Shown here one piece after another: positions 689 through 63,540 of a DNA stretch of 64,000 bases. The notes under the pieces are model-generated. The model did no database searches. It was not told the origin of the DNA and was given only the letters and a program-made list of their open reading frames with translations. Position 1 is the first letter of the stretch. Each line of letters begins with the position of its first letter. This DNA comes from Rhodoferax sp. WC2427 (GTDB lineage Bacteria > Pseudomonadota > Gammaproteobacteria > Burkholderiales > Burkholderiaceae_C), in assembly GCF_040822085.1 (NCBI RefSeq), contig NZ_CP162006.1:2046001-2110000 (forward strand). Reading direction: 5' to 3'. Made by a program: the position numbers and the translations under genes.

Positions 689-1768
689 ATGCCTTCTTCC
701 CCGGCCAAGCAGCCCCGCACCCGCAAGTCCCCGGTGGCCGACCCGCAACAGCAACTCAGTCTGTTGTTCAATGAAGCTCCTGAGACGGCGCCAGCTCCCA
801 CACCAGCCCCTGCCGCTGTGCCCGTTGAGCTTGCAACAGCCCAGCCTGCCATCGCGATCACCTCCGATGGGGAGGCCCTGGCGCTGCAACTCGAACAACA
901 CCCTGACTACCGCGTCTTGCGCCGCCTGGTGCCGCAGTTGCACTTCGCCGCGGCCTCCGGCCCGGGCGTGAAGCGCCTGCTGGTGCTGGACACCGAGACC
1001 ACCGGCCTGGAGCACAGCCGCGACAAGATCATCGAGCTGGCCCTGCTGCGCGTCGATATCGACACCGCCACCGGTCTGCCCTGTGGCAGCGTGCAGGTGT
1101 ATGACGGCCTGGAAGACCCCGGCCAGCCCATCCCCGACATCGCCCGCAAGATCACCGGCATCGACGACAGCATGGTGGCGGGCCAGGCGCTGGACGAGGC
1201 CCGCATCACCGAACTGCTCGAAGGCGTGGATTTGGTGGTGGCGCACAACGCCGGGTTTGACCGCCCGTTTGTCGAAGCCCGCCTGCCCGCGTTCGCCGCC
1301 AAGGCCTGGGCCTGCTCGTTTGCCGATATCGACTGGAAGCAAGAAGGCCGCGATTCCGCCAAGCTCACCGCCCTGGCGCTGGACCTGGGCCGGTTTTACG
1401 ACGCACACCGCGCCGAAATGGATTGCCACGCCTTGCTGGCGGTGTTGCAGGCCCCCATGCCGATCGCAGGCCACACCGGCCTGGCGCATCTGTTGGCCGC
1501 CGCCGAGGGCACCCGCTACCGCCTGCAGGCCAATGGCGCACCGTTTGATGCCAAAGACGCACTCAAGGAACGCGGCTACCGCTGGGACGCGGCCAACAAG
1601 GTCTGGCACACCCGGTTGATGGATGAAGCTGCCCTGCAAGGGGAATGCGATTGGCTGGCCGCCGCGGTCTATCGGGGCCGGGCGGCCCGGGTGCAGGTCG
1701 AGGCGCTGGATGCCCGCGTACGCTACGCCAGCCGCGCCGGACTGTTGACTTGGCGCAATATTGGATGA
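689..1768 (+). CDS. DnaQ-fold 3'-5' exonuclease (DEDDh)
   Basis: A 359-residue protein with an Ala/Pro-rich N-terminal tail (about residues 1-80) followed by an exonuclease domain. Exo I is LVLDTETTGLE (Asp and Glu ligands), Exo II is VVAHNAGFDRPF, and Exo III is HRAEMDCHALL, with the His and Asp of the DEDDh subgroup. These features match the proofreading exonuclease fold of DNA polymerase III epsilon and related repair or RNA-processing nucleases. After the domain comes a C-terminal stretch (RYRLQANGAPFDAKDALKER) whose role I do not recognise. Length and tail differ from the replicative DnaQ, so a stand-alone exonuclease is more likely. The ATG at 689 is the first in frame, but no strong ribosome-binding site is seen. 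The stop codon touches a dispersed repeat copy. Confidence 0.75.
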   Translation: MPSSPAKQPRTRKSPVADPQQQLSLLFNEAPETAPAPTPAPAAVPVELATAQPAIAITSDGEALALQLEQHPDYRVLRRLVPQLHFAAASGPGVKRLLVLDTETTGLEHSRDKIIELALLRVDIDTATGLPCGSVQVYDGLEDPGQPIPDIARKITGIDDSMVAGQALDEARITELLEGVDLVVAHNAGFDRPFVEARLPAFAAKAWACSFADIDWKQEGRDSAKLTALALDLGRFYDAHRAEMDCHALLAVLQAPMPIAGHTGLAHLLAAAEGTRYRLQANGAPFDAKDALKERGYRWDAANKVWHTRLMDEAALQGECDWLAAAVYRGRAARVQVEALDARVRYASRAGLLTWRNIG

Positions 1769-1822
1769 AATAGGCCTCCTGTGCTTATACACTGGGCGTG
1801 AGTAGCTATAAAAATAGTAGCT
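1768..1822 (-). repeat. Dispersed AGCTGCT repeat, copy A
   Basis: Read on the minus strand, this copy has the family core TAGCTACTCACGCCCA, then TATAAGCAC and AGGCCTATTT, preceded by the CTATTTTTA arm. It begins at the stop codon of the exonuclease gene. Confidence 0.75.
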
Positions 1823-2033
1823 TTGAAAAAATGTGTTTCTACGGCTGTCAACGGCAAATATAGAAAAGCATCCTCCAAATTGAGGATAAAAACCCCCCAC
1901 TGATGGCGCGGTATACACCGTGGCGCACGGGTAGCCAGTCAATCAAGAGGATAATGCAGCCTTCGATCCGGCCGTGCGCCGAACTATTTCCTTGCCAAAT
2001 TGATGCAATTGGCACCCAACTAAGGCTCTATCC

Positions 2034-2267
2034 ATGGCGAAAGCTGATTCCAAAACTGCCATGCTGGCCGACGGCCTGCGTTACAAGTCCAAAGCCTCCG
2101 GTTCCCCCTTCGCTGCTGCAGCGTCGTTTGGCGGGGCCACCATGTCCTGCTTTTTGTGCGGTAAGCACCGCACCCGTTCCCTGATGGGCACCCGCAAGGT
2201 GCTGGGCAAGTCGCAAGCCGTGTGCGCACCTTCGTGCCAGGCGATGGACGAAGCCGCTGCAGGCTAA
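2034..2267 (+). CDS. Small CXXC-containing protein of unknown function
   Basis: A 77-residue basic, Ala/Ser-rich protein starting MAKADSKTAMLADGLRYKSK. The central CFLCGKHRTR contains a CXXC pair, and a third Cys (CAPSC) sits near the C-terminus, so metal binding is possible. An AAGG sequence lies a short distance before the ATG. The codon use and good spacing support a real gene, but I do not recognise the family. It precedes another small basic ORF on the same strand. Confidence 0.5.
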   Translation: MAKADSKTAMLADGLRYKSKASGSPFAAAASFGGATMSCFLCGKHRTRSLMGTRKVLGKSQAVCAPSCQAMDEAAAG

Positions 2268-2375
2268 ATTCAATTTAAAGCCCCTTTAAACCCCATTTGA
2301 CCGGCTGTGTGGGCAAATCGCCCGCGCGGTTGTGGCCTAATCGCGGGTTGTCACATTTTCTTTGGAGTAAACACA

Positions 2376-2540
2376 ATGGCAAAAGAACCCCGTACCGAAG
2401 CCGAGCGCCTGGCTACCCCCCGTCCCACCCCACTGCCTGGCTACGCCAGCCCGGTCAGCCGCGGCCAAAAGCGCAGCCTGGAGCGCGGTGTCGCTACGCG
2501 TAGCAAGAAGAACCCTGGCAAGCGCGCGCGCCAAGGCTAA
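2376..2540 (+). CDS. Small basic protein of unknown function
   Basis: A 54-residue, Lys/Arg-rich protein (MAKEPRTEAERLATPRP at the start, RSKKNPGKRARQG at the end). I prefer the ATG at 2376 over the upstream in-frame ATG at 2307, because TTGGAG lies about 10 bases before it. The composition suggests nucleic-acid contact, but that is inference only. A GC-rich hairpin follows the stop codon. Confidence 0.45.
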   Translation: MAKEPRTEAERLATPRPTPLPGYASPVSRGQKRSLERGVATRSKKNPGKRARQG

Positions 2541-2560
2541 GCCCTTATTGCACACCTTCG

Positions 2561-2599: not shown

Positions 2600-2630
2600 T
2601 TGTCGTTTCTGCAGGTGACAAAATAGACCT

Positions 2631-5132: not shown

Positions 5133-5151
5133 GAAGATTATCGGGTTTATT

Positions 5152-10953: not shown

Positions 10954-10996
10954 GGGCCTATTGTCCCAGCATAGTGACGCAATCTAGATTGCAAGG

Positions 10997-11050
10997 AAAA
11001 TCGGCTGCTAGCGCTTATCCTATGAGCGTGAGCAGCTATAAAAATAGTAG
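10997..11050 (-). repeat. Dispersed AGCTGCT repeat, copy B
   Basis: A near-consensus copy read on the minus strand: CTACTATTTTTATAGCTGCT, then CACGCTCATAGGATAAGCGC and TAGCAGCC. It lies between dnaG and the hydrolase gene and ends next to the hydrolase stop codon. Confidence 0.8.
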
Positions 11051-11053
11051 TAA

Positions 11054-12112
11054 TCAGGTTTTGCTCTTGGCCTGCGCGTAGCGGGCGGCGGCAATGACGC
11101 TGAGGATGGCTGTGGTGACGGTGTCGGGCTGGTCCTGGTGGATGTTGTGGCCGCTGTCGCCCACTATTTTGATGCGGCCCAGTCGCGACATTTTGGCCAT
11201 GTTGCGCTGGCTGGCATCCCAGACCTTGCCCAGGCGTTCCGGCCACCGGCTGGCGGAGCGGTCTTGGCTGAGCACAATCAACGGTACGGCGGGGAATTCT
11301 CCGGCCCGGCGGGCTTGGCGCGCAGTGAGCGCGGCGGAGGCAATCTCGGCCCGCATGGCGCTGGGGGCCATGGCAAACAGCAGGGCCGGCGGGTCGTACC
11401 ACATGCGGTGCACGCCAAGCTGCTTGCAGCGCTTGGAAAATTCGGCGTGGCGCGCGTCCACCAGCACCACCCCGGCGACCTCCGTGGGGTAGGTTTTGGC
11501 AAACAGCTTGACGATGGTGCCGCCCAAAGAGTGGCCCACCAGCACATAAGGCGGTTTGATTTCTTCGGTCTGCAGCATGGCACGCAGCTCGCGCAGGATC
11601 TGCAAGCCATCGCGCGGCAGCCGTGAGCGCTCGCTCTGGCCATAGCCCGCCCGGTCGTAGGCGACGGCATGGCCGATGGCGCTGATCTCGTTGAAGATGC
11701 GGCCCCACGCATTTTTGCCATTGCCCAGACCCGCCTCAAACAGTACGGTGGGTCCGCCCGTGCCCGCGCTGACGAAGGCTCTGGCCCCATAGGGCGTGTA
11801 GCTCATGGTGTGCGAAGGCATGGTTTGAGAGCGCATTGCAGGGCCTATGCGGGCGCGCAGGGCGTCTACCGACAGCAGCGGCAGGGGCGCCGCGGGCGGT
11901 GGCGGTGGCGTTTTGGGCGCAGGGGCCACTGTGGTGCGGCTCGACGGCTTCAGGTGCGCGGGCACCGCGTCCTGCGGCATGCGCAGTACCGTGGTGCGCC
12001 GACGAACAGGTGGAAAAGGCGCGGTTTCCGGTGGCTTCAGGTGGTCTATCAAGGGCGTGGTGGGGGCGATCGCCATGTCAATTACGCGGCAAAAAGTCTG
12101 CACTGGCCCCAA
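11054..12112 (-). CDS. Alpha/beta hydrolase
   Basis: The C-terminal 250 residues form an alpha/beta-hydrolase: oxyanion region VLFEAGLGNGKNAW, nucleophile elbow VLVGHSLGGTIVK, and a late His in VGDSGHNIHQDQP, a plausible Ser-Asp-His triad. The first 90 residues are Pro/Ala-rich (PKTPPPPPAAPLP) and look like a disordered linker. The start may be 12112 (MGPVQ) or 12076 (MAIAPTT). No typical signal peptide is seen. The substrate is not predictable. It stands alone, with a dispersed repeat just past its stop codon. Confidence 0.75.
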   Translation of the reverse strand: MGPVQTFCRVIDMAIAPTTPLIDHLKPPETAPFPPVRRRTTVLRMPQDAVPAHLKPSSRTTVAPAPKTPPPPPAAPLPLLSVDALRARIGPAMRSQTMPSHTMSYTPYGARAFVSAGTGGPTVLFEAGLGNGKNAWGRIFNEISAIGHAVAYDRAGYGQSERSRLPRDGLQILRELRAMLQTEEIKPPYVLVGHSLGGTIVKLFAKTYPTEVAGVVLVDARHAEFSKRCKQLGVHRMWYDPPALLFAMAPSAMRAEIASAALTARQARRAGEFPAVPLIVLSQDRSASRWPERLGKVWDASQRNMAKMSRLGRIKIVGDSGHNIHQDQPDTVTTAILSVIAAARYAQAKSKT

Positions 12113-17935: not shown

Positions 17936-18414
17936 TGCCGTTTCGTATCGGAGAAGGTTGGGATGTGCACGCCCTGGTGGCGGGCCGCAAGCTGATTTTG
18001 GGGGGCGTGGAGATTCCGCACCCCCTGGGCCTGCTGGGCCATTCGGATGCCGATGCGCTGCTGCACGCCATCACCGATGCCCTGCTGGGGGCGGCCGCGC
18101 TGGGCGATATCGGCACGCATTTCTCAGACACCGACCCGCAGTTCAAGGGCGCGGATTCCATGGTGCTGTTGGCCGAAGCCCTGCGCCGGGTGGCCGCCCA
18201 GGGTTACCAGATTGGCAATATCGACAGCACCATCATCGCCCAGGCCCCCAAAATGATGCCGCATATCCCGGCCATGCGCGCGCGCATCGCCCATGGCTTG
18301 GGCCTGGCGCTGGAGCAAATCAACATCAAGGCCAAGACGGCGGAGAAGATGGGCCCGGTCGGGCTGGGCCAGAGCATCGAGGCGCGGGCGGTGGTTTTGC
18401 TATATAAAAAGTAG
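17935..18414 (+). CDS. ispF: 2-C-methyl-D-erythritol 2,4-cyclodiphosphate synthase
   Basis: A 159-residue IspF of usual size. Metal-binding Asp and His appear in [10 protein letters not shown] and the second His in [26 protein letters not shown] and [12 protein letters not shown] are the other family signatures. It cyclises CDP-ME 2-phosphate to MEcPP in the MEP pathway, two steps after IspD (the intervening kinase IspE is elsewhere). The last residues LLYKK and the stop codon are encoded by a dispersed repeat copy. Confidence 0.96.
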
Positions 18415-18452
18415 CTGCTCACGCTGATGCATCAAGCGCTAGCGGCCTATTT
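18399..18452 (+). repeat. Dispersed AGCTGCT repeat, copy C
   Basis: A near-consensus copy: GCTATATAAAAAGTAGCTGC, TCACGCTGATG, then CAAGCGCTAGCGGCCTATTT. It overlaps the last 16 bases of ispF and provides its final codons and TAG stop. Confidence 0.85.
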
Positions 18453-18463
18453 CATGCCTTATT

Positions 18464-23177: not shown

Positions 23178-23223
23178 ATAAGAGCTGCCTACGCTGATTG
23201 GATAAGCGCAAGAGTCGTATTTG
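23169..23223 (+). repeat. Dispersed AGCTGCT repeat, copy D
   Basis: Reads GCTATATAAATAAGAGCTGC, CTACGCTGATTGGATAAGCG, CAAGAGTCGTATTT, close to consensus. It contains the stop codon of the LysR gene and ends just short of lpxH. Confidence 0.85.
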
Positions 23224-23227
23224 GTGC

Positions 23228-24535: not shown

Positions 24536-24551
24536 GGCAAGGATTCCTTTT

Positions 24552-27330: not shown

Positions 27331-27345
27331 TGGGCGGTATAGATG

Positions 27346-27399
27346 GTTTAGGGTCTCTGTGCTTATGGAATAAGCAGTGGTAGCTCCTAAAGTTATAGC
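27346..27399 (-). repeat. Dispersed AGCTGCT repeat, copy E
   Basis: Minus strand: GCTATAACTTTAGGAGCTAC, CACTGCTTATTCCATAAGCA, CAGAGACC. It overlaps the GTG at 27377 that opens the glycosylase frame and may supply its first eight codons. Confidence 0.7.
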
Positions 27400-29046: not shown

Positions 29047-29059
29047 TTTAACGGCAAAC

Positions 29060-33856: not shown

Positions 33857-33864
33857 TTGGCCTT

Positions 33865-45772: not shown

Positions 45773-45820
45773 TTGATAGCTGCTTGTGCCGATGGAATGG
45801 GCGTTGGCAGCCAAAAAAGC
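45764..45820 (+). repeat. Dispersed AGCTGCT repeat, copy F
   Basis: Reads ACTATCTAATTGATAGCTGC, TTGTGCCGATGGAATGGGCG, TTGGCAGCC. It contains the phoR stop codon and extends almost to the convergent membrane-protein gene. Confidence 0.75.
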
Positions 45821-45827
45821 TTACAAA

Positions 45828-50008: not shown

Positions 50009-52543
50009 ATGTCCAACGCTTTCGACCCCCTCTGGTTTGCCCCTGGCACCGGCCTGTTGGCCCAGATACAGCAGGCCATGGCGCAGCGCCAGGCCCATCC
50101 CGCGCGCACCGTGGTTCTGCTGCCCTACGCGCAGCTGATGCCGCTGGCCCAGCGGTTTTGGGCGCAGGCCCGGCCCGATGGCTTTGCTCCGCGTTTCGAG
50201 TCCACGTTGAACTGGTCGCACGGCCTGGGCGGCACGGCCCAGGGGCCGCACGATCTGCGCTTTGATACCGCCATGGACATGCTGCAGGCCCCCGACCTGC
50301 TGGAGCGTGCCGGGCTGGGCGCGCAGCGCGAGGCCTTGTCGGCACGTCTGGTCGAGGCCGCCCAGCAGCTGGCCCCGCTGGTGGCCGCCGTGCCGCCGCC
50401 GCAGCGCGCCGAGTGGGCCGTCCAGGCCCGCGAGGCGGTGGGCCTGGGCATGGAAGCCCCGGTGCTGGCGCTGGAATGCGTGGTGGCCCGCATCGCGCTG
50501 GAATGGGCCGCCGCCTCCAGCTACGCCACCGACGTGCTGTGGAACGACAGCGTGCCCGCGGCGCTGGAGTGCATCGTCGTGCTCGATGGTTTTCAGACCG
50601 ATCCGCTGGTCCACGCCCTGTGCGCCGCCTGGGGTGACAAGGTCACGCGCCTGGTGTGCCCCACGCCGCCGCCGCCACCCATGCCCGCGTTGCACCCGGC
50701 CAGCGATTCCGAAGACGAGGCCCAGCGCGCTGCGGCCTGCGTGCTGCGCCACATCGAGGCCGGGCGCACGCCGGTCGCCCTGGTGGCCACCGACCGCCTG
50801 CTGACCCGGCGCATCCGCGCCATGCTGGCCGCGCAGCAGGTGCGCATCCGCGACGAGACCGGCTGGAAGCTGTCCACCACGCGGGCTGCCGCGCAACTGG
50901 TGGTCACACTGCGGGCGGCCCGCTGGGACGCCAGCAGCGACGCGGTGCTGGACTGGCTGAAGAACGCCCCCGCGTTCCGCCCCCGCACCGTGCAGTCGCT
51001 GGAGAAGGCGCTGCGCAAGGCGTCGGTGCAAAGCTGGTCTGCCTGGAGTCCCGAGGCCACGCCGAAACAACCCGCCGTCTCCGATGCCGTGCGCCTGGCC
51101 AACAGCCTGCGCGCCAGCCTGCAAGCCGCCCGTCCGCTGGCCGCCTGGCTGGCCGCCGTGCGTGGCTTGTTGCAGGCCAGCGGACAGTGGGCTGCGCTGG
51201 AGGCCGATGCCGCCGGGGCCAAGCTGCTCTCGGCCCTGCGCCTGACCGAGGGGGCAGAGGCCGAATTTGCCGACTTGCCCCAGGCCGCCCGCCGCCTGCG
51301 CCTGGCCGAATTCAGCACCTGGGTGGGCGATGCGCTGGAGGCCGCCAGTTTTGTGCCCGACCACCCGCAGGACGAGCAAGTGGTGGTGCTGCCCCTGAGC
51401 CAGCTGCTGGCCCGCCCGTTTGCCGCCCTGGTGCTGCCCGGCTGCGACGAGGTGCGCCTGGCCGCCTCGCCCGAGCCGCCCGGGGCCTGGACCGCCGCGC
51501 AGCGCGAAGCCCTGGGCCTGCCGTCCCGCGCCGTGCTGGAAGCCGCCGCCCGCGCCGCCTGGGCCAACGCCCTGCAAACGCCGTGCACCGACGTGCTGTG
51601 GCGGCAAAGCGATGCCTCGGGCGAAACCCTGCTGGCCAGCCCGCTGGTGCAGGCGCTGCAGGTGGCGGGCAAAGTCCCGGATGCCGCCGACCCGCGCATC
51701 CCCCGCAGCCTGACACCGCTGCCCAGCGAACGGCCCTTGCCCGTGGGTGCCGCGCTGCCCGTCGCCCGCCTGTCGGCCAGCGCCTACGAGGATTTGCGCC
51801 GCTGCCCGTACCGTTTTTTCGGCCTGCGCCAACTGGGCCTGCAGGAGTCGCAAGAGCTCACCGGCGAGGTGGACAAGCGCGACTTCGGTACCTGGCTGCA
51901 TGCCGTTCTCAGGCATTTTCATGAGGCATTAAAAGTGGCTCCCACGCCCATTCCATCAGCACGGGTAGCTATGATGAATGTAGCGGCCGAGCAGATCACG
52001 CAAGACATGCACCTGGAGCCGGGCGAGTTCCTGCCCTTTGCCTCGGCCTGGCCCCGGGTGCGCGACGGCTACCTGGCCTGGCTGGCCCCGCACGAAGCCG
52101 CGGGCGGCCAGTTCGAGCAGGCCGAAAGCGCGCTCGAACTCCCGCTGGGCACCATCACGCTGGTCGGCACCATCGACCGGGTCGACCAGGTGCACGCCGA
52201 CGGCCACACCACCGCGCTGGTCATCGACTACAAGACCGAAAACGCCCAGGCCACCGGCAAACGCATCCAGCAGCCGCTGGAAGACACCCAGCTGGCCTTC
52301 TACGCCGCGCTGCTGCCGCATGACACCTTGCGCGCCGCCTACCTCAATGTGGGCGAAAAAGACGGCAGCCAGCTGTTCGAGCAGGCCGAGGTGGTCGAGG
52401 CCCGCGACGCATTGGTCCACGGCATCCTCGACGACATGCAGCGCATTGCCGCTGGCGCCACCCTCGCGGCGCTGGGCGAGGGCGCGGCCTGTACTTTTTG
52501 TGCCGCGAGAGGCCTGTGCCGCAAGGACTGGTGGACGGCGTAA
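50009..52543 (+). CDS. AddB-like PD-(D/E)XK nuclease (probable DNA repair protein)
   Basis: An 844-residue protein of the AddB-related repair family. The N-terminal inactivated helicase-like part lacks a Walker A GKT ([12 protein letters not shown]). The C-terminal nuclease has [36 protein letters not shown] (the D-x-K active site) and a terminal Cys set [10 protein letters not shown] that, with the earlier RRCP Cys, resembles the AddB iron-sulfur clamp. With the AddA-like helicase it would resect double-strand breaks. Residues about 641-659 ([17 protein letters not shown]) match a dispersed repeat read in frame. The AddA-like gene is 3 kb downstream, not adjacent. Confidence 0.8.
51931..51984 (-). 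repeat. Dispersed AGCTGCT repeat, copy I (in the addB-like gene)
   Basis: Minus strand: GCTACATTCATCATAGCTAC, CCGTGCTGATGGAATGGGCG, TGGGAGCC. It matches copy F well, including GATGGAATGGGCGT. It lies in frame between the first nuclease helix and the rest of the domain. Confidence 0.75.
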
Positions 52544-52553
52544 AAGCTCTGTT

Positions 52554-52610
52554 GCTACACAAAAAATAGCTGCTTACGCCTATGGAATAAGCACAGAAGC
52601 CCTAAAAAGC
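52554..52610 (+). repeat. Dispersed AGCTGCT repeat, copy G
   Basis: Reads GCTACACAAAAAATAGCTGC, TTACGCCTATGGAATAAGCA, CAGAAGCCC. It lies past the addB-like stop and supplies the stop codon of the convergent LysR gene. Confidence 0.85.
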
Positions 52611-53552
52611 TTGCAAACTCCCGTGGCGCTCCAGCCAGGCGCAAAACGCCACCGCGTGCGGGTTGTGCGTGGCCTGCGGGGCCATGATCCAGTAGTTGGT
52701 GCGGTCGCACAGGGTCAGGGCGGGGAAGGGCGTGTGCAGTAGGCCGCTGGCCAGTTCTTCGCGCAGTTGCAGCGGGTTGCCCAGGGCGATGCCCATGCCC
52801 TGCACGGCGGCCTGCACGGCCAGGTGGGCGTGGTCGAAGGTGACCAGGTGGCGCGGCTGTTGTGCGGCCAGCCCGGCCAGGGCCAGCCAGTCCTGCCAGA
52901 CCATCGGGGTGGAGCGGCTGTGCAGCAGGGTGCGCGACAGCACATCGGCCGGGTCGGCCAGGGGCGGCTGGGCGGCCAGCACCTGCGGGCTGCACACGGG
53001 GGTCAGGGTGTTGGGCAAAAAGGCCCCCAGCACCACGTCGCGCCAGGGGGCGCGCTGGCGCAGGGCGGCCAGCTCGCTGTCGGTAAAGCAGCGGATCGAC
53101 ACGTCGTAGGCCGCCGGGTCGAAGCCGGTGGCGCTGAGGGTGGTGGCCAGTTGCACGTCCACGCCCGGCACTTCGGCGCAAAACCCGGCCAGCTGCGGAA
53201 TCAGCCACTGCGCCGACAGCGAGGCCATGGAATTGACCGACAAGGTCTTGCCGCGCAGCGGGCGCTGCACCCGGGCGGTGGCGCTGGCCATCTGGTCGAA
53301 GGCGCTGCGCAGGCCGGGCAGGTAGGCCGCGCCCTCGGCCGTGAGCCCCAGGCCCCGGCCACTGCGCTGCACCAGTGGAACGCCCAGCCATGTTTCCAGT
53401 GCCTTGATCTGGTGGCTGACCGCACTTTGGGTCACATGCAGCTCCTGCGCGGCCAGGGTCACGCTCTCCAGCCGGGCGGCGGCCTCGAAAGCGCGCAGCA
53501 TGTTCAGGGGCGGCAGGCGGCGGGCGGTGGTTTTGGCATGAGCTGAGTTCAT
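52602..53552 (-). CDS. LysR-type regulator, GcvA-like
   Basis: A 316-residue LysR protein. The N-terminal helix-turn-helix VTLAAQELHVTQSAVSHQIK and PPLNMLRAFEAAARLESV are typical of the GcvA-type subgroup. The effector domain includes VQGMGIALGNPLQLREELAS. It is divergent from the HAD/MFS pair, so it may control them; a specific site was not identified. It is part of the three-gene block between the AddB-like and AddA-like genes. Confidence 0.8.
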   Translation of the reverse strand: MNSAHAKTTARRLPPLNMLRAFEAAARLESVTLAAQELHVTQSAVSHQIKALETWLGVPLVQRSGRGLGLTAEGAAYLPGLRSAFDQMASATARVQRPLRGKTLSVNSMASLSAQWLIPQLAGFCAEVPGVDVQLATTLSATGFDPAAYDVSIRCFTDSELAALRQRAPWRDVVLGAFLPNTLTPVCSPQVLAAQPPLADPADVLSRTLLHSRSTPMVWQDWLALAGLAAQQPRHLVTFDHAHLAVQAAVQGMGIALGNPLQLREELASGLLHTPFPALTLCDRTNYWIMAPQATHNPHAVAFCAWLERHGSLQAF

Positions 53553-54389: not shown

Positions 54390-55579
54390 AAACCGGTGCA
54401 AGCCTGTTCCCCACAACGATCGACACCGCCCCCCGCTTCGGCCTGCACCTGTCGGCCGAATGGCGGGTGTTTGCGGCCTTCTTCCTGTACTCGTTTGGCC
54501 TGGGCGGCATCTTCCCCCGGCTGGGCGAAATCCAGCGCGGCATGGGCGTGGGCGAGGGCGCTTTGGGCCTGGCGCTGATCGGCACCGCAGCGGGCACCCT
54601 GGTGTCGCTGACCCTGGCCAGCCGCCTGCTGGAGCGCATTGGCTACCGCCGGGCGCTGCTGCTGCTCACGCCCATGATTGCGCTGTTTTTTGCCATTGCC
54701 AGCTGGGCCAGCGGGCCGCTGGTGCTGTTTTTGTGCCTGGTGCCTGCGGGCCTGTGCATCGGCGTGGTGGAGGTGGTGGTGAACGTGGAGGCCGACCGGG
54801 TCGAGCACCAGCTGGGCCGCCGCATCATGAACCGCGCCCATGCCTTCTGGAGCTTTGGCTTTTTTGCTGCCGGGCTGGCGGGCGCGGGCATTGCGCAACT
54901 GGGCATCAGCCCGCAGCTGCACCTGGCGCTGATGGTGCCGGTGTCGCTGGCCGCCACGCTGCTGCTGCTGGGCCGCTTCAGCCCCGCGCCGCTGCGCGAA
55001 GCCACCACCGAGGAAGCCCCGCACTTCGCCCGGCCCACCTGGGCCATCATGGCGCTGGTGTGCGTCACGCTGTCGGCCATGCTGCTCGAAGGCGCGGGCG
55101 CCGACTGGTCGGCCATCTACATGCGCGACGTGTTTGCCGCCTCGCCGCTGGTCTGCGGGCTGGCGGTGGCGGCGGGCGCGTTCACCCAGGCGGTGATGCG
55201 GTTTTTTGCCGACGGCCTGGTCGAGCGCTTCAGCCCGGTGGTGTTTGCCCGCTGCCTGCTGGTGGTGCTGGGCTGCGGCGCGCTGCTGGTGGTGCTGGCC
55301 CCCTTGCCCGCGTTGGCGCTGCTGGGCCTGGGGCTGATGGGCGTGGGCACCAGCGGCATTTTTCCGCTGGCCATGTCGGCGGCCGCGCAGCGGGTGGACC
55401 GGCCCGCCGCCGTCAACGTGGCGGCGCTGGCGCAAATCTCTTTCGTGGTGTTTCTGCTGGGCCCGCCCTTGCTGGGCCAGGTGGCCGAGCACTTCGGCAT
55501 CCGCAACCTGTACGCTGCCTGCCTGCCGTTTGTGCTGCTGAGCCTGGTGGCCGTTGGGGCCCTGGGTAAGAAGCAATGA
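54386..55579 (+). CDS. MFS transporter
   Basis: A 397-residue protein with about 12 membrane helices. LASRLLERIGYRRALLLLTP is the MFS loop 2-3 motif, and NRAHAFWSFGFFAAGLAGAG resembles the YbjJ/fucose-permease-like group. The direction of transport and substrate are not predictable. It is coupled to the HAD gene (ATGA) and its stop overlaps the AddA-like ATG, so all three may be co-transcribed. Confidence 0.8.
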   Translation: MKTGASLFPTTIDTAPRFGLHLSAEWRVFAAFFLYSFGLGGIFPRLGEIQRGMGVGEGALGLALIGTAAGTLVSLTLASRLLERIGYRRALLLLTPMIALFFAIASWASGPLVLFLCLVPAGLCIGVVEVVVNVEADRVEHQLGRRIMNRAHAFWSFGFFAAGLAGAGIAQLGISPQLHLALMVPVSLAATLLLLGRFSPAPLREATTEEAPHFARPTWAIMALVCVTLSAMLLEGAGADWSAIYMRDVFAASPLVCGLAVAAGAFTQAVMRFFADGLVERFSPVVFARCLLVVLGCGALLVVLAPLPALALLGLGLMGVGTSGIFPLAMSAAAQRVDRPAAVNVAALAQISFVVFLLGPPLLGQVAEHFGIRNLYAACLPFVLLSLVAVGALGKKQ

Positions 55580-58500
55580 CCCTCGCCGCCTACGAACACA
55601 ACGGCCACCCGGTCGAGCGCGCCGCCTTCTACGCCATCGCCTGCGACCCCCGGCGCAGCATCGCGGTCGAGGCCTGCGCGGGCGCGGGCAAAACCTGGAT
55701 GCTGGTGTCGCGTATCCTGCGGGCGCTGCTGGAGGGCAGTCTGGCCAAGGATGGCCATGGCACCGCCGCCCACGAGATCCTGGCCATCACCTTCACCAAA
55801 AAAGCCGCCGGTGAAATGCGCCAGCGCCTCAACGAATGGCTGGTCGAGTTCGCCCAGGCAACACCCGAGAAGCTTGCCGAGGAACTCCTGGCCCGCGGCG
55901 TGCCGCCCGCGCAGATCGCCCTGCAGGCCCCGGCCCTGAAAAACCTTTACCCCCAGCTGCTGGCCAGTGCCCGCCCGGTGCAGATCCGCACCTTCCATAG
56001 CTGGTTTGCCGCCCTGTTGCGCACTGCGCCGCTGGCCGTTTTGCAGGACCTGGGCCTGCCCGCCCACTACAGCCTGCTGGAAGACGACGTGGAGGCCGTC
56101 ACCGCCGTGTGGCCGCGCTTTTACGCCACCGTGGTCGACAGCCCCGGCGCCCGCGCCGACTTTGAAGCCCTGGTGGCCGTGCAGGGCCGCTTCCAGGCAC
56201 ACAAAGCGTTGACCGCCGCGTTGAACAAGCGGGTCGAGTTTGTGCTGGCCGACGCGCAGGGCGTGGTGGATGCGTCGGTGCCGCCGTTCGACGTGCAGTT
56301 TCCCGCCTTCACCGGGCTGGCCGCACCCGAGGATTTGCTCTGGGCCCAGCGCCCGTTGCTGCAAGAGGCCGCTGGCCACCTGGGCCGGGCGAGCGCCGTG
56401 ACCTTCTCCGCCGCAGGCAGCGCGCTGGAGCAGGCGCTAACGGCCCAGGATGCAGATGCGGTGCTGGCCGCCTTGCTCACCCAAAAAGGCACGGCCCGCA
56501 AGTTTGGCGAAAAGATTGTCGGCATCGCCACCGTGCGCGCCGCGCAAGACCTGGTGCTGCAGGTGGCCCAGGCCCAATTGCAGCACGCCGCCTGGGCGCA
56601 CCAGCAGCGCATGGCGCGCCTCACCCGCGTGCTGATCGCCGAGCTGGCCGCCCTGAAATACGAGCGCGGCTGGGTCGATATGAACGACGTGGAACGCGCC
56701 GCGTCCGTCATGCTGTCTGACCCCGTGCTCAGCGGCTGGGTGCAGGAGCGGCTGGATGCCAAGGTCAAGCACCTGCTGATCGACGAATTCCAGGACACCA
56801 GCCCGCTGCAGTGGCAGGCCCTGCACGCCTGGCTCAGCGGCTATGCCGGTGCATCCGGCGCGCCCAGCGTCTTCATCGTGGGCGACCCCAAGCAAAGCAT
56901 CTACCGCTTCCGCCGCGCCGAGCCGCAGGTGTTCCGCGCCGCCCAGGCCTTTGTGGTGGACGGGCTGGGCGGCGACCTGCTCAGCTGCGACCACACCCGC
57001 CGCAACGCCCCCCCGGTAATGGCCGCCGTCAACGCCGTCATGTCGGCCGCGCAGGCTGCCGGTGCCTACGACGGTTTCCGCGAGCACACCACCGAATCCA
57101 CCGCCCTGGGGGCCTTGCGCTACCTGCCCGCCATTCCCCGCGATGCCAATGCCTCCGCCATCCAGGCCGCACAGGATGGCTGGCGCGACAGCCTGGGCAC
57201 GCCCCGCGAAGAGCCCGAAGACACCTTGCGCACCCTGGAATGCCGCCAGGCCGCCCAGTGGCTGGCCGGGCAACTGGCCGACGGCTTGGCACCCAAGGAC
57301 GTGATGGTGCTGTCGCGCCGCCGCGAGCGCCTGGGCCACATGCGCGATGCCCTGCGCGCCCTGCACATCCCCACCCAGCAGCCCGAAAAAGCCGACCTGG
57401 CCGACGCGCCCGAGGTGCAAGACATCGCAGCCCTGCTGGACGCGCTGGTGTCCACCCACCACGACCTGTCGCTGGCGCAGGCGCTGAAATCTCCGCTGTT
57501 TGGCGTGGCCGACGCGGACCTGGTGCACCTGGCCCAGCTGCAGCGCGCCGCCCGCGCCACTGTCCCTGAATTAGCTCCCTCGCCCCTCCGGGGAGAGGGC
57601 GGGGGTGAGGGGGTTTCCCCGGTTGCCCATGACAGCAGCTGGTGGAGCCTGCTACACAATTCAGAGCTGCTTACGCCCACGCTATCAGCGCTGGCCCCGG
57701 TTTTGGTGCAATGGAAACAGTGGCTGGACGCATTGCCCCCGCACGACGCGCTGGACGCCATCTACGCCCACGGCGACGTGCTGGCCCGCTTCGCCGCCGC
57801 CGCGCCCGCCGCCTTGCGCACGTCCGTGCTGGCCAATCTGCGTGCCGTGCTGGGCACGGCCCTGCAGCTCAACGAAGGCCGTTTCGCCACCCCCTACGCC
57901 CTGGTGCGCGCCCTCAAGGCCGGTGGTGTCAAAGCCCCGGTCACCAGCGCCCCCGATGCCGTGCGCCTGCTCACCGTGCACGGTGCCAAGGGCCTGGAGG
58001 CTGCGCTGGTGCTGCTGCTCGACACCGACTCCCCGCCCGGCAAGGCCGAAACCATGGGCGTGCTGGTGGACTGGCCGGGCGAGGCCGAGTACCCCGTGCG
58101 CCTGGTCTTTTTGGCCAGTGAATCGAATCCGCCCGCCTGCGTGGTCGACGTGCTGGCCATCGAGCAGGCCGCCCGCCAGCGCGAAGAACTCAACGGCCTG
58201 TACGTCGCCATGACCCGCGCCCGCAGCCAGCTGGTGCTGTCGTCCGTGGTGCCGCACAAGGCGGTGGATGGCTCGTGGTGGCAGCGCTTGCAGCCCCTGG
58301 GTGAAAGGATCGGAGCGCTGGCCGCCGCCGACCCACTGCAGGCCGCCGCAGCCGATGCCGATTTCACCCTGCTGGTGGTGCCCGATATTGGCCTGCAGGT
58401 CGCACCAAAGCGGCCCGAAGTGAACGCCGCCGAGTCGCTGGAGTCCCGCGTGGGCCAGGCCATGCACCGGCTGCTGGAGTGGGGCGTGACCGACCCCGCC

Positions 58501-58881
58501 CGGCAGCAGGCCGTGGCCCGCGAGTTCAGCCTGGACGCCGCGCAGTCGCAAAAAGCCGCCACCATGGCCGCCGCCATCCGTGCGGGCGAAGGGGCTTGGG
58601 CCTGGGATGCGGAGGTGGTGGATTGGGCGGGCAACGAGGTGGCCCTGAACTACCAGGGCCAGACTTTGCGGCTAGACCGCCTGGTACGCCGCAAGGACAC
58701 GGGTGCCTGGTGGGTGCTGGACCACAAATCCAAAGCCCAGCCGCAGCGGGATGCGGGGTTGGTGCAGCAGTTGGAGACTTACCGGGCGGCGTTGCGGGTG
58801 TTGTATCCGGGGGCGGCGGTGGAGGCGGCGTTTTTGACGGCGGGCGGAGGGCTGGTGGTGGTTGAAACGGCATCAATTTGA
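55576..58881 (+). CDS. AddA-like UvrD-type helicase-nuclease
   Basis: An 1101-residue superfamily 1A helicase. Walker A is AVEACAGAGKTWMLVSRIL; motif Ia AITFTKKAAGEMRQRL; motif II LLIDEFQDTSPLQWQ; motif III VGDPKQSIYRFRRAEP; the later motifs include RLLTVHGAKGLEAALVLLL and LYVAMTRARSQLVLS. A C-terminal RecB-type nuclease has WWVLDHKSKAQPQ. It should unwind and cut DNA ends with the AddB-like protein. Residues about 666-710 are encoded by two different repeats placed back to back. The gene is separated from addB-like by LysR-HAD-MFS. Confidence 0.88.
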   Translation: MTLAAYEHNGHPVERAAFYAIACDPRRSIAVEACAGAGKTWMLVSRILRALLEGSLAKDGHGTAAHEILAITFTKKAAGEMRQRLNEWLVEFAQATPEKLAEELLARGVPPAQIALQAPALKNLYPQLLASARPVQIRTFHSWFAALLRTAPLAVLQDLGLPAHYSLLEDDVEAVTAVWPRFYATVVDSPGARADFEALVAVQGRFQAHKALTAALNKRVEFVLADAQGVVDASVPPFDVQFPAFTGLAAPEDLLWAQRPLLQEAAGHLGRASAVTFSAAGSALEQALTAQDADAVLAALLTQKGTARKFGEKIVGIATVRAAQDLVLQVAQAQLQHAAWAHQQRMARLTRVLIAELAALKYERGWVDMNDVERAASVMLSDPVLSGWVQERLDAKVKHLLIDEFQDTSPLQWQALHAWLSGYAGASGAPSVFIVGDPKQSIYRFRRAEPQVFRAAQAFVVDGLGGDLLSCDHTRRNAPPVMAAVNAVMSAAQAAGAYDGFREHTTESTALGALRYLPAIPRDANASAIQAAQDGWRDSLGTPREEPEDTLRTLECRQAAQWLAGQLADGLAPKDVMVLSRRRERLGHMRDALRALHIPTQQPEKADLADAPEVQDIAALLDALVSTHHDLSLAQALKSPLFGVADADLVHLAQLQRAARATVPELAPSPLRGEGGGEGVSPVAHDSSWWSLLHNSELLTPTLSALAPVLVQWKQWLDALPPHDALDAIYAHGDVLARFAAAAPAALRTSVLANLRAVLGTALQLNEGRFATPYALVRALKAGGVKAPVTSAPDAVRLLTVHGAKGLEAALVLLLDTDSPPGKAETMGVLVDWPGEAEYPVRLVFLASESNPPACVVDVLAIEQAARQREELNGLYVAMTRARSQLVLSSVVPHKAVDGSWWQRLQPLGERIGALAAADPLQAAAADADFTLLVVPDIGLQVAPKRPEVNAAESLESRVGQAMHRLLEWGVTDPARQQAVAREFSLDAAQSQKAATMAAAIRAGEGAWAWDAEVVDWAGNEVALNYQGQTLRLDRLVRRKDTGAWWVLDHKSKAQPQRDAGLVQQLETYRAALRVLYPGAAVEAAFLTAGGGLVVVETASI
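57571..57620 (+). repeat. GC-rich GGGGAGAGGG-type repeat in the addA-like gene
   Basis: The stretch CCCCTCCGGGGAGAGGGC then GGGGGTGAGGG aligns with the centre of the large palindrome at about 60181-60212. It is translated in frame as LAPSPLRGEGGGEG, a peptide commonly seen when this repeat class enters a protein. Confidence 0.75.
57651..57705 (+). repeat. Dispersed AGCTGCT repeat, copy H (in the addA-like gene)
   Basis: Reads GCTACACAATTCAGAGCTGC, TTACGCCCACGCTATCAGCG, CTGGCCCCGG. Its start matches copy G (GCTACACAA). It is translated in frame as LHNSELLTPTLSALAPV. Confidence 0.75.
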
Positions 58882-59568: not shown

Positions 59569-59819
59569 AAGTTGTGTAAGGCCTCAATATGGAGAGATAC
59601 TTTCGAGTCTCCTTGGCATCTCATCTGTCGCCCTAGCATGGGTGACAAGTTATTCTTGAAATCCGACCTGACTTGGATTTTTTCGGTTTGCGGTGCGCCC
59701 TAGAAGGCAATAACAATTTCAGAAAAATAGCAGAGGGACGCTGCACTATATCCCGGCAATCTCTTGCAGCTTGCATTGCGACTGCTCTCGTTTTTGAAGC
59801 TGTGCATGCCGCCAACGCC
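59569..59819. other. Gene-free, less GC-rich stretch
   Basis: Contains the upstream region of the membrane protein and several short, unconvincing ORFs. Base composition matches the adjacent orphan gene. No hairpin or repeat of note was seen before the palindrome begins. Confidence 0.4.
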
Positions 59820-60441
59820 GCTGGCCGGGATGTGCCCCCGGCAGGGCAGTAACTTGTCTTTTGCGTGGCCAAAAGAAAGTCACCAAAGAAAAGGCCACCC
59901 CCACTACCTGCGCCCCGTCGCTATCGCGTCGGGGAGCCTGCGGTGCTCGCTTCAGGTGGGGTCTGGCTAAACTCGCTTCGCTCAAACAACGCCAGCCCTG
60001 GTCCACCTGAAGCTGCGCTCCTCGGCGCATCTAGAGGGGGCCCCTGGGATCGCAATCGGGGGCGCGCAGCGCCCCATCGTGCCTAGGGCACGAGTGCCCC
60101 CATCCCAACCTTCCCCCGGCGGGGGAAGGGGCAAGGCAGTGAACGCCCGTACGCACCGTGGTGTTTACCGGTATTTCTCCCTCCCCCACCGGGGGAGGGC
60201 CGGGGTGGGGGCACATCGCGACCGGCGCGATGCCCGGCGTAGCCGGGCCGATCCCGGCCCCGGGGTCCCCATCTGTATGCGCCGAGGAGCACAGCTTTGG
60301 GCGGATCAGGGTTGGCGTTGTTTGAGCGCCAGCGAGTTTAGCCAGACCCCGCCCAAAGCGCGCACCGCAGGTTCCCGTAGCGCCAGCGGAGGGCGCAGAC
60401 AGTTGGGGCGCCTTTCTTTTGGTGTCTTTTCTTTTGCGTAA

Positions 60442-61731
60442 TGTATGGACCGGGGACATGCGAAACAGGTGTGCAGGGACATAGTAAACACAATGGTCCT
60501 TCAGGCAGCGGCCTGCAAAGCCTTCAAGTCCACCTGCATGAAGCGCTGATGGCAGAAGAACACGTTGTAGTAACCCACCTGCTCGGGGTCTTCTCGGAAG
60601 GCAATCGGTAGCTAGAGCAGCGCGCTCGATACCCGCAGCTTGAACCCCTTGAAACGGACTTCTCCATTCCAGTTGACCACGGCCACCGTGTCCTCTTGGG
60701 GGTACTCGATCGGTGCCAGCGTGGCGGAGTAACTTCTCGGGCTGCTCTGGTAGCGCTGGGCCGGGGTCTGTAGCTCCAACGCATCGTGGGGCCGCTCGTG
60801 GTTGTAGATGCCGCGCCAGTGCTCGAAAGCCAATTGCGCTTGCGCCAAGCCTGCAAAGCTGCGCCTTGCCAGTACCTCGGCTTTGAGCGAGCGGTGGAAG
60901 CGCTCGATCTTGCCGTTGGTTTGCGGGTGGTACGGCGCACTGTGGCTGACCCGGATACCCAGGCGGATCAACCAGATACTGAGCTCGCTCAAGGTCTGCC
61001 CGGGCTGGCGAGGGCTGCCCCAAGGGGCTCCGTTGTCGGCATTCACACGCAGCGGCAGGCCATAGCGTTGGAATACCTGGGCCAGGTGGGGCTGCACACT
61101 GGTGGTGGCCACATTGGGGCAGGCCTGCAGCACCAGGTTGAAGCGCGAATGGTCGTCCAGCAAGGTCAGCGGATAGCAGCGCCCTTGCAAGGTATCGAAG
61201 TCGCCCTTGAAGTCGATTTGCCATAGCGCATTGGCTTGCTCGTGTTCGAAGCGCTGCCAGTGCTGGGCGGCCACGCTGGCCTGGGGCGTGATCAGGCCGT
61301 GGCGGTGCAGGATGGCCGTGACAGTGCTGGGCGGAGGCACATCGGCATGGCCCAGCTCGGCCAAGCGGCGGGCAATCTTGCGTCCACCCCATGCAGGGTG
61401 CTGTACGCGCAGTTGCGTGACGGCAAGCTCCAGAGTGGGCGAGGTGCGTGCAGGGCTGTGCAAGGGCTTGCGGGAGCGGGGGGCATAGGCAGCTACCCCT
61501 TCCTGGGCGTAACGGGCCAGCAGCGCATAGCCGGTCTTGGGGCTGATGCCAAAGCGGCGACACAGCTCGCGCCGGTTGGCTCCCTCTTTGCAGGCCAGTT
61601 CCACGAATTCTTGCTTCATGTCCATAAGGTCTTTCGGTGTCCAAGGCATGCTGGTCTCCCTGCGCTGAATGCGCACAGGAGGTGTTTACTATGTCTTCGC
61701 ACACCTGTTTCCTATGTCTCCGGTCCATACA
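60442..61731 (-). mobile_element. IS481-like insertion sequence
   Basis: A 1290-bp element with terminal inverted repeats of about 50 bases (TGTATGGACCGG-GACAT...GAAACAGGTGTGC...GACATAGTAAACAC at both ends, a few mismatches). It is flanked by a 6-bp direct duplication GCGTAA (60436-60441 and 61732-61737), so both ends are intact and insertion was recent. It carries one transposase frame on the minus strand, broken by a stop codon near its end. Confidence 0.9.
60501..61649 (-). pseudogene. IS481-family transposase with premature stop
   Basis: Starts MPWTPKDLMDMKQEFVELAC at 61649. An N-terminal helix-turn-helix (NRRELCRRFGISPKTGYALL) precedes an integrase core with the DDE triad: WQIDFKGDF, NADNGAPWG and GKIERFHRSLKAE. 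The frame meets a TAG at 60612-60614 after VSSALL, but then continues in frame for 36 codons (LPIAFREDPEQVGYYNVFFC and on) to a TGA at 60501. The DDE core is complete, so partial activity of the shortened protein is possible. Confidence 0.8.
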
Positions 61732-61817
61732 GCGTAAAAGAAAAGATACTGCGCCGCCGGGCGCACATCCCGGCCAACGATCGCAGTAGAAACCAACCCG
61801 CCGTCAACGCCAACCCG

Positions 61818-61903: not shown

Positions 61904-61930
61904 CTGCCGCCCGCGCAGCCCACACAATCC

Positions 61931-61997
61931 GCTTCTATTTTGATAGTCAAAAATAGGAGCTGCTCGTGCTTTTCTGGTCAGCACAAGCAGGGTATTT
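61931..61997 (+). repeat. Dispersed AGCTGCT repeat, copy J
   Basis: Reads CTATTTTGATAGTCAAAAATAG (a small AT hairpin; shown here to its full 22-base extent only as positions 61935-61956), then AGCTGCTCGTGCTTTTC and CAGCACAAGCAGGGTATTT. It belongs to a longer subtype shared with copy K. Confidence 0.65.
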
Positions 61998-62129
61998 AAT
62001 GCTCTAAAAAATGGGCCAAAATCCACAAAGCGTTAGCGTACCCGCTCCCCCGCCAGCGCGGCGCTTTTTGACGGGTGGCGGGGCTCAATGCCCACGCCCA
62101 CCAGCGGGCCAACATAAGCCATCTGCGGG
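61998..62129. other. Spacer without a gene
   Basis: Together with the repeats before it this makes a gap of about 390 bases between the IS and the next gene. No ORF or regulatory site was recognised in it. Confidence 0.4.
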
Positions 62130-62687
62130 TCAGCGCGCGCGCCGGTAGTGCATGGCGACCGCGCCGTTGCGCAACGGCTGCGCCGATACCAACGCCAGCC
62201 GTCGCGTGCGGGCCAGCCCGCCCTCAAACAGCGTCGGGCCGTGGCCCGCGATCCTGGGGTGGACGAGCAACTGGTATTCGTCGATCAGATCCAGCCGGTC
62301 CAGCACGGTCGCGAGCTTGCCGCTGCCGAGGAGTACGCCGTCCGGAGTCGCGTCCTTGAGCTTTTGCACGCCCGTGTGCAGCTCGCCGCCGATGTGGTGG
62401 CTGTGGGTCCAGGGAAAGTCCTTTCGCGTCGAGGACACTACGTACTTGGGCTTGGCCTCCAGCTTGACCGCCCACGCGCGCATCGCCGGTGGCGCCTGCG
62501 TGTCGCCGCGGGCGACCGCGGGCCAGTAGCTCTCCATCATCTCGTAGGTGACGCGGCCCCACAGCATCGCGCCGCTCTGGTCCATGAGGCGGGTGAAGAA
62601 GGCGTGTGTCTCGTCGTCGGCGATGCCTTCCTGGTGGTCGACGCAGCCGTCCAGCGTGATGTTGATGCTGAAGGTCAAGAGTCCCAT
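62130..62687 (-). CDS. RibD C-terminal/dihydrofolate-reductase-like protein 1
   Basis: A 185-residue protein of the RibD_C/DHFR-like fold. MGLLTFSINITLDGCVDHQE is the usual first strand and LDG motif, GAMLWGRVTYEMMESYWPAV the second, and GVLLGSGKLATVLDRLDLID the nucleotide-binding Gly loop. Family members are NADPH-dependent reductases of unknown substrate and are rarely true folate enzymes. The ATG at 62687 follows AAGGAC. It lies 25 bases after a paralogue, as a tandem pair. Confidence 0.8.
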   Translation of the reverse strand: MGLLTFSINITLDGCVDHQEGIADDETHAFFTRLMDQSGAMLWGRVTYEMMESYWPAVARGDTQAPPAMRAWAVKLEAKPKYVVSSTRKDFPWTHSHHIGGELHTGVQKLKDATPDGVLLGSGKLATVLDRLDLIDEYQLLVHPRIAGHGPTLFEGGLARTRRLALVSAQPLRNGAVAMHYRRAR

Positions 62688-62712
62688 GGTGTCCTTCTGG
62701 AGTTCTCTTGCT

Positions 62713-63285
62713 TCAGGCTGCACCGTTGCCCTGGCTGTTTGGCACCGCGTAGCGGAGTTCGGCGAAGCCGCTGCCGATCTGCTGGGCGGAGGTCAGGCTC
62801 AGGGGTGGGGAGGTCAGGCGGCGGGGGAATAGCGGCTTGCCTTGGCCCAGGGTCACGGAGCCGACTTGCACGATGAGTTCATCGAGCAGGCCAGCATCGA
62901 AGAACTGGCCTGCCAGGTCGCCACCGCCCACGATCCAGATATTTTTGCCGCTGGCAGCGCGTCGCATCGCTGCGTGGACAGGCCGGACATCGCCGCTGAC
63001 AAAGCGCAGGTCGACCCCGGGCACGCGCGGCAGCGCCCGGCTGGAGAAGACCCAGGTGGGCTGCGTGTAGGGCCAGGCGCTGCCCATCTGGTCCTGCACG
63101 GTCACCGCGTGGCGCAGCATCCAGGCGTAGGTCGCCGAACCCATGGCCAGGGCACCCACGTCGGCGATGAACGACGGGTAGCTGGTGTCATTCACATCGC
63201 CCAGAGGGAAAAGCCACTCCAGGGAGTCGTCTTCGGTGGCAATGAAGCCATCCAGGCTGCTTGCGGTGTAGTACTGGGTTTTCAT
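62713..63285 (-). CDS. RibD C-terminal/dihydrofolate-reductase-like protein 2
   Basis: A 190-residue protein with MKTQYYTASSLDGFIATEDD, then LAMGSATYAWMLRH and the dinucleotide-binding NIWIVGGGDLAGQFFDAGLL. It is the upstream member of the tandem pair. The LDG and GGGxLA features match the RibD_C family. I chose the ATG at 63285, where homology begins; an upstream ATG would add 15 unrelated residues. Substrate unknown. Confidence 0.8.
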   Translation of the reverse strand: MKTQYYTASSLDGFIATEDDSLEWLFPLGDVNDTSYPSFIADVGALAMGSATYAWMLRHAVTVQDQMGSAWPYTQPTWVFSSRALPRVPGVDLRFVSGDVRPVHAAMRRAASGKNIWIVGGGDLAGQFFDAGLLDELIVQVGSVTLGQGKPLFPRRLTSPPLSLTSAQQIGSGFAELRYAVPNSQGNGAA

Positions 63286-63471
63286 GGAAGGCGCGGTTGT
63301 GTGGTGCTGTGCAGCCAGGGCCCAGGCCATGGGCGTATTTTCGGATTTTGTGGCTTATTTTCAAGTTCCTACACCGCCGCCCACGCCAACCCGCAAAGTG
63401 TTGGAGCACGCATGCGGGTCCACGGGCGATGCAGAACCCAGTTTTCCTATTTTCAGGCCCATTTTGCCCCC
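63286..63471. other. Divergent promoter region without a gene
   Basis: First part of a 327-base gap between the DHFR-like gene and the divergent flavoprotein. No clear ORF or hairpin; a dispersed repeat occupies the next 70 bases. Confidence 0.4.
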
Positions 63472-63540
63472 TGAAAAATGCCGCTATCGCCCATTCCATC
63501 AGCGTGAGTAGCTCCTGTTTTCAACATCAAAAACAGGAGC
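63472..63540 (-). repeat. Dispersed AGCTGCT repeat, copy K
   Basis: Minus strand: CCTGTTTTTGATGTTGAAAA then CAGGAGCTACTCACGCTGAT and GGAATGGGCGATAGCGGC. It has the extra AT-rich hairpin seen in copy J and ends about 70 bases before the flavoprotein start. Confidence 0.75.

Follow-up and report, generated by a model that had tools for sequence, protein, structure and literature searches.

The stretch of DNA analysed here, hereafter the window, comprises the 64,000 nt at positions 2,046,001-2,110,000 of Rhodoferax sp. WC2427, a genome of one 4.78-Mb contig (G000; relatives carry handles of the same kind), and holds 14 copies of a dispersed, structured palindrome family, which is a real one. An earlier note on the window had listed 15 copies in both orientations, and both orientations are indeed found. 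A seed profile built from 13 of the listed copies recovers 14 of the 15 sites, and 14 are borne out at E values of 1e-4 to 1e-17 by a test profile whose 76 copies lie beyond the window region and were themselves found with a profile started from window copies; the copy listed at 4145 goes unsupported (a 25-nt match, E 0.015 under the 76-copy profile), and the one listed at 61931 exists, with its position corrected to about 61949-62002. Shuffled sequence, the yardstick by which the note had wished the family to be judged, yields nothing comparable: with the seed profile, ten dinucleotide shuffles of the window in 2-kb blocks give no hit below E 0.1. The layout it described is correct, while the conserved unit, at 55-65 bp, is somewhat longer than the 50-55 bp proposed, and the suggested density of about one copy per 4 kb compares with the 14 per 64 kb found here, near the 0.20 per kb of the genome sample.

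Between convergent genes lie the plus-strand copies at 18394-18457 (genes 17965-18414 on the plus and 18464-19912 on the minus strand; E 3.6e-17; also in the congener G007 and in G002), 23166-23232 (genes 22272-23177 and 23228-24016; E 3.2e-15), 45760-45827 (genes 44414-45772 and 45828-47504; E 1.7e-14) and 52548-52617 (genes 50009-52543 and 52602-53552; E 4.8e-15). On the minus strand, the copy at 1761-1821 overlaps the stop codon of the plus-strand gene 689-1768 (E 1.9e-12), that at 10988-11058 lies past the stop of the minus-strand gene 11054-11980 (E 9.7e-18; also in G007), and that at 27339-27407 separates cysS (25954-27330) from the gene beside it (E 1.9e-8), whose N-terminus it would overlap if the GTG at 27377 were the start; similar sequence stands at the same place in G017 and Acidovorax Leaf78. 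Copies are also found inside genes, at 51926-51989 (minus strand; E 2.2e-9) within the 844-aa PD-(D/E)XK nuclease gene 50009-52543 and at 57644-57711 (plus strand; E 8.1e-12) within the 1101-aa UvrD-type helicase gene 55576-58881. Weak copies occupy 20894-20942 (plus strand; E 1e-4; equal length in G007 and G002), likely the N-terminal coding start of a SIMPL/DUF541 gene, 31767-31818 (minus strand; E 2.1e-5), at the boundary of the minus-strand gene 31818-32762 and an EF-Tu-type GTPase gene, and 33802-33857 (minus strand; E 1.1e-5), at the N-terminus of a DUF934 gene whose length there is equal within 1 nt in G001-G005. The remaining two are the copy at 61949-62002 (plus strand; E 1.2e-6), which lies outside an IS481-type element, and a copy of the CAGGAGCTACT type at 63473-63521 (minus strand; E 3.1e-9), also present in G007.

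Beyond the window, the G000 genome contains at least 150 matches at 48 bits or more. Twenty evenly spaced 20-kb stretches together with the window hold 96 copies at E 1e-3, 82 of them within the 400 kb, and at E 1e-4 we count 131 copies in 644 kb, or 0.20 per kb, which extrapolates to ~970 per genome. A search of the window against Rfam at the gathering score gave no matches, and in E-value mode the four weak matches lie away from every family copy; plasmids and phages gave no blastn match to the consensus, a weak test given the divergence of the repeat.

With the A of AGCTGCT counted as position 45, the conserved block occupies positions of about 29-93 and reads TGCTAY, an A/T-rich spacer, RTAGCTGCTYACGC, TYAT-N3-ATRA, GCGCTAGNGGCC, TWWWW and an A-rich tail. 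Inside this unit, of 46% GC, sits a core palindrome of ~34 bp, in which positions 54-60 form an inner stem with 64-70 and positions of about 46-51 an outer stem with 73-78; alternatively, GCTAY could pair with RTAGC in a short hairpin. Folding of the RNA, which the earlier note had advised, gives the core a mean of -12.5 kcal/mol versus -7.0 for mononucleotide shuffles. The arms of each copy fit one another, since hairpins assembled from arms of different copies are weaker, on either strand and in both species (sense strand, own versus swapped: -12.50 versus -11.61, standard deviation 0.25, in G000, and -12.21 versus -11.09, standard deviation 0.35, in G007; in each, 0 of 60 shuffles reach the real value), and same-locus chimeras that join an arm from each species are weaker too (p 0.075 sense, 0.016 antisense). 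These matched arms, together with the location at gene ends, sit well with one of the two interpretations offered in the note, that of an RNA-level element.

Gene context was assigned with our own hexamer-based gene finder (444 genes, 87.5% coding, over 464 kb). The 131 copies of G000 divide into 59 in tandem gaps, 42 in convergent gaps, 17 in genes, 12 in divergent gaps and one at an edge, and the 57 of G007 into 26, 20, 5, 6 and 0, respectively. Where convergent gaps measure 30-200 bp, 72 of their 94 gene ends have a family copy; at tandem copies (n=85) the core starts a median of 10 nt past the upstream stop, with the distance to the next start scattered. Orientation bias is absent (39/85 tandem copies), and a strand-specific terminator with an oriented T-tract was rejected, the A/T tail being unrelated to gene orientation.

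Our preferred reading, held tentatively and as quite possible rather than probable, is that the family constitutes a sequence-constrained, bidirectional, palindromic gene-end signal, a terminator-like hairpin. Transcribed from either strand, the core could form a hairpin next to A/T tracts; from the position of copies just past stops and between most convergent genes with a wide enough gap, they most likely end or trim the transcripts that arrive from the two sides. Bases that hardly vary (CTA, AT, TAGC, GC, GC, WW) further suggest a sequence-specific factor that would also read the element. The reading draws on the placement of copies without orientation bias, on the matched arms and, from the comparison with G007 below, on the fixed positions and the shared sites, which resemble a gene-end signal more than a jumping element; copy number, location, conservation, arm fit, dialects and the lack of empty sites between two species are observed, and termination or 3'-end formation and the factor are inferred from them. 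Whether such copies replace canonical terminators is only hinted at, since the relevant contrast is confined to narrow convergent gaps: at 30-100 bp, canonical terminators accompany 10 of 62 ends with a copy versus 9 of 18 without (p 0.009, for a gap range picked after the table was seen and with the two ends of a gap non-independent), and in tandem gaps of 60-200 bp they accompany 4 of 38 ends with a copy and 20 of 98 without, as judged by a crude detector that also scores 19 of 400 coding windows positive.

Several observations weigh against this gene-end reading. The terminator contrast is reversed in convergent gaps over 100 bp (4/14 ends with a copy, 0/12 without) and vanishes over all ends (21/129 with a copy versus 28/155 without, p 0.75). 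Of the 131 copies, 17 fall within called genes, in which termination would be harmful, and hairpins at 3' ends are not significantly stronger than those in genes. At least five T in the 8 nt past the hairpin are found on the mRNA strand of 36% of the 85 tandem copies, barely above the 34% on the other strand. Excess Watson-Crick pairing falls below p 0.05 at 2 of 14 pairs in G000 (49-75 and 57-67), 2 of 14 in G007 (49-75 and 54-70) and 0 of 14 in G017, and covariation in the 13-copy window alignment is no higher than in shuffles. Gene 3' ends are, besides, permissive locations in themselves.

The comparison with G007, ~91% identical to G000 over 264 and 260 kb, bears on how copies are maintained. 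Of 55 G000 copies, 42 occupy sites comparable in G007 and 13 do not; with the G007 partners located by synteny rather than by the profile, 40 of the 42 sites match the profile in the same orientation and the other two have diverged at equal length. None of the 42 is empty, and in the reverse direction 41 of 57 G007 copies are shared with G000, 16 are not comparable and none of the 41 is empty. Over the 42 pairs, positions 32-34, 39, 40, 44-47, 55, 56, 68, 69, 82 and 83 show 12 changes in 630 cells, against divergences between the two genomes of 0.179 at four-fold sites and 0.132 in other aligned intergenic DNA. Positions 39, 40, 44, 82 and 83 hold different bases at different loci (A or T; T or G), with three changes in 210 cells, as would be expected if A/T (or T/G) were required there.

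Such fixed positions are also what a site bound as duplex by a nucleoid or chromosome-organising protein would display, one restricted to gene ends by its exclusion from promoters and coding sequence. The near-invariant bases extend over ~50 bp, W positions stay A or T at each locus and copies do not cluster, all in keeping with duplex recognition; against it stand the better hairpins formed by own than by swapped arms, which duplex binding alone would not need, and the strong excess in convergent gaps, and we regard this account as rather unlikely.

The hairpin itself changes in a directed manner. Positions 49, 54, 58, 61 and 70 differ at 0.38-0.48 of the 42 loci, with a pooled four-fold rate of 0.18, and directed shifts persist against base-specific rates: C54>T at 14/33 (four-fold 0.049), G70>A at 14/34 (0.040) and G49>T at 9/31 (0.015). 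From G000 to G007, C54>T occurs 14 times versus 2 in reverse and G70>A 14 times versus 1. A hypervariable or hypermutating hairpin was considered and dropped, the variable sites at positions 49-75 having accumulated 279 changes versus the 373.5 expected from base-specific four-fold rates. A recombination hot spot was likewise rejected, as breakpoints are not enriched at copies (10/54 versus 7.3 expected for intergenic sites drawn at random, p 0.17). Several of the differences in gene content that separate G000 from G007 do border on copies. At L162 9394-14233 of G007, a 4.8-kb segment lies between two direct copies where G000 has one (L153 6131), whose left part resembles the left G007 copy and whose right part the right one, a hybrid look seen in one of six cases.

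The second interpretation in the earlier note, a non-autonomous mobile palindrome, lacks support as a description of present activity, and the checks it had proposed, for empty orthologous sites (here at 42 loci comparable between two species) and for a matching transposase, were run with negative outcome; for intergenic copies, a past spread by insertion may still apply. The genome has a single PF01797 gene, of the type of RAYTs (repetitive extragenic palindrome-associated tyrosine transposases), at L151 1405-2276. It is flanked by 29-nt inverted repeats of the AGGGGTCAGA type, unlike the family, one copy of which sits between the gene's stop and the right inverted repeat. Among genomes of the bacterial family, PF01797 occurs in 12 of the 13 that have matches and in 4 of the 5 that have none, and mobilisation by a RAYT is rejected on these grounds: a single gene, different repeats and a presence that does not track the family.

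Copies inside genes point the same way. That in the PD-(D/E)XK gene aligns to nearer homologues without gaps at the motif, including those of G001, G004, G009, G010 and G017, in which the profile detects no motif, as does that in the helicase gene (no motif by the profile in G001 and G013), with small gaps at the motif appearing in homologues of either below ~45% identity; for a copy in pepN (L114), compared at the protein level, 34 of the 35 homologous proteins shown are gapless and one lacks a single residue. From this gapless alignment the three copies most likely formed in place; the codons at the motif look AT-rich by eye, and a fourth copy, in the variable tail of pepA, is uninformative. 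Just before the helicase motif, at ~57560-57640 of the window, G000 alone carries another insertion, ~54 nt of CTCCCTCGCCCCTCCGGGGAGAGGGCGGGGGTGAGGG, absent in G007, G002, G003 and G005: an in-frame insertion of another repeat.

Some intervals without a copy in distant relatives tell differently. At the 52548 site they are shorter by 53 nt in G003 and 71 nt in G005, at one further site by 39 nt in G004 and at 31767 by 36 nt in G001; of 19 named motif-less cysS loci, 14 are 32-65 nt shorter and the other five within 8 nt or longer. Over longer times, intergenic copies may thus come and go as whole units, and the shorter cysS loci, together with the reversed contrast in wider gaps, lower our confidence in a gene-end signal, also in its more far-reaching version below, and raise it in past insertion. 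What such insertion would amount to is a mobile hairpin of the repetitive extragenic palindrome (REP) type, spread once by a RAYT or another transposase and now largely immobile. REPs resemble the family in copy number, palindromic form, placement at gene ends and presence of some copies in genes (PMC3733652), and the position of the REP tag is mostly RTAG or RGAG (ATAG 70, GTAG 33, AGAG 13, GGAG 12, others 3). Exact GTAG is nonetheless limited to 33 of 131 copies, while over 90% of members of most GTAG REP families end in it (PMC3733652); moreover the only RAYT-type gene fits poorly, close pairs are lacking (the smallest of 167 inter-copy distances is 253 bp), none of the 42 comparable sites is empty and three in-gene copies show no insertion. 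On balance we consider a REP-type origin unlikely.

The family also invites comparison with DNA uptake sequences (DUS) and uptake signal sequences (USS), which are 9-12 bp words that occur as singles too. An uptake-type signal would owe its copies to biased uptake and recombination, be tolerated at gene ends and double as a terminator; species dialects, the missing orientation bias, in-gene copies without change of length and palindromes at gene ends would all follow, and DUS and USS do have such traits (PMC3630211, PMC2397512). The longer words tested, however, are nearly confined to whole copies (occurrences outside: 3/50 for ATAGCTGCT, 1/27 for AGCGCTTAT and 2/37 for AATAAGCGC), so that the enrichment of single words expected of an uptake signal is wanting; the 7-mer AGCTGCT is common elsewhere, with 245 of 331 occurrences outside copies. 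Intermediates are few (122 copies below E 1e-6, 142 below E 5), and copy density in DNA unshared by G000 and G007 (0.13 and 0.28 per kb) is not consistently lower than in shared DNA (0.22 and 0.21). This origin seems to us improbable.

Among 30 genomes, 13 (G000 included) have matches, all in the same bacterial family, probably the Comamonadaceae to judge by the named loci, while 12 genomes that represent 12 further families of the order have none. Within the family, a survey of 160 genomes with stricter filters and a model fitted to G000 finds matches in 33 genomes and in 30 of 141 genera; four further genera carry, per 100 kb, 15, 18, 25 and 8 copies, of which 5, 6, 3 and 2, respectively, are inside called genes. 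Dialects are evident from paired changes in the consensus: pair 57-67 turns from T-A to A-T in G002 and G003 (10 and 12 copies), pair 59-65 from A-T to G-C in G017 (20 copies, the pair forming in only 8), and a CGCTTG...CAAGCG form prevails in G138, G090 and G034. Within the genus, G004, probably R. koreense, has 13 matches and G001, a 73% complete genome, none. At the G004 site orthologous to window position 18394 (L140), the gap holds TTCGACAGGCTCAGCACGAACGG-type repeats in place of a family copy.

A more far-reaching version of the gene-end reading, which we hold to be doubtful, would make the element a sequence-specific gene-end code of the whole bacterial family, with ~1000 sites per genome, a putative factor whose hairpin preference drifts between species, sites that follow by compensatory changes, new sites arising by in-place substitution even in genes, and decay where the factor is lost, perhaps in Rhodoferax koreense. 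If it were true, the element would be a main gene-end signal of a large environmental bacterial group, the Comamonadaceae, and transposition as a means of spread would be told apart from selection as the force that maintains each site, a distinction seldom drawn for REP-like repeats. The range of copies within one genus, from ~1000 to the few of R. koreense, means that a reading factor could be sought by comparison of gene content.

The earlier note knew no established name for the family, and our searches of an open-licence library did not supply one; the inner stem has, however, already appeared in print as a pair of motifs left unexplained. Among unnamed 'potential novel motifs', a 2017 study lists GCTTAT(N)5AAGCG in Acidovorax ebreus and ATAGCT(N)22CAAAAG in Polaromonas naphthalenivorans, and counts 140 motif pairs in Rhodoferax ferrireducens, more than in any other genome it examined (PMC5217627). 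The Acidovorax pair, present there in 114 copies of which 107 are intergenic and close to genes (44 convergent, 4 divergent, 59 co-oriented; PMC5217627), fits the family's inner stem and is exact in 28 of the 131 G000 copies; the Polaromonas pair is contained in none of the 131. The available part of that paper gives spaced pentamers only, without the full element, its structure, comparative evolution or function. A motif of the inner stem has therefore been glimpsed before, and our searches of the open-licence library met with no description of the whole element, of its conservation and dialects or of an origin in place.

Set beside GTAG REPs, the family is likewise palindromic and high in copy number, lies past stops and between convergent genes, includes some in-gene copies and has complementary stem variants; it differs from those REPs in a longer unit, a GCTAY box, the absence of a fixed GTAG and of close pairs, the missing RAYT link and sites kept between two species (PMC3733652). 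Of the features by which REPs are recognised, a high-copy palindrome of 20-40 bp and the location past stops and between convergent genes are present, and dominance of a terminal GTAG and a RAYT flanked by or tracking the repeat are absent; RAYTs with unrelated inverted repeats are also known, and the six Comamonadaceae genera looked for in the main text of that survey are not mentioned there (PMC3733652). The Beta-proteobacterial repeat element (BRE) is similarly dispersed, usually intergenic with some copies in genes, and reported from Comamonadaceae and Bordetella; its ~90 bp, 69% GC in Bordetella and tandem arrangement at some loci set it apart from the 55-65 bp, 46% GC, single copies seen here (PMC3110155). 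As for DUS and USS, dialects, gene-end palindromes and in-gene copies are held in common. Filled and empty sites between close relatives, as expected of miniature inverted-repeat transposable elements, are found at 0 of 42 loci and, in reverse, 0 of 41. In our judgement the family operates in the manner of REPs or of gene-end terminators, lacks two REP features and belongs with the dispersed gene-end palindromes.

Three further features of the window deserve mention. At 29049-29110, between gene ends, lies a second, unrelated and near-perfect hairpin repeat (CAACTTTCATGG...CCATGAAAGTT, ~-35 kcal/mol), which looks mobile: the orthologous site in G007 measures 6 nt versus 61, and copies 86-93% identical occur elsewhere in G000, G007 and G002. 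The IS481-type element is an insertion sequence at 59819-61779 with nested inverted repeats and an integrase-core transposase gene on the minus strand (60612-61676). At 24029-25124, two adjacent minus-strand genes contain stretches of DNA 76-79% identical to each other, a tandem duplication.

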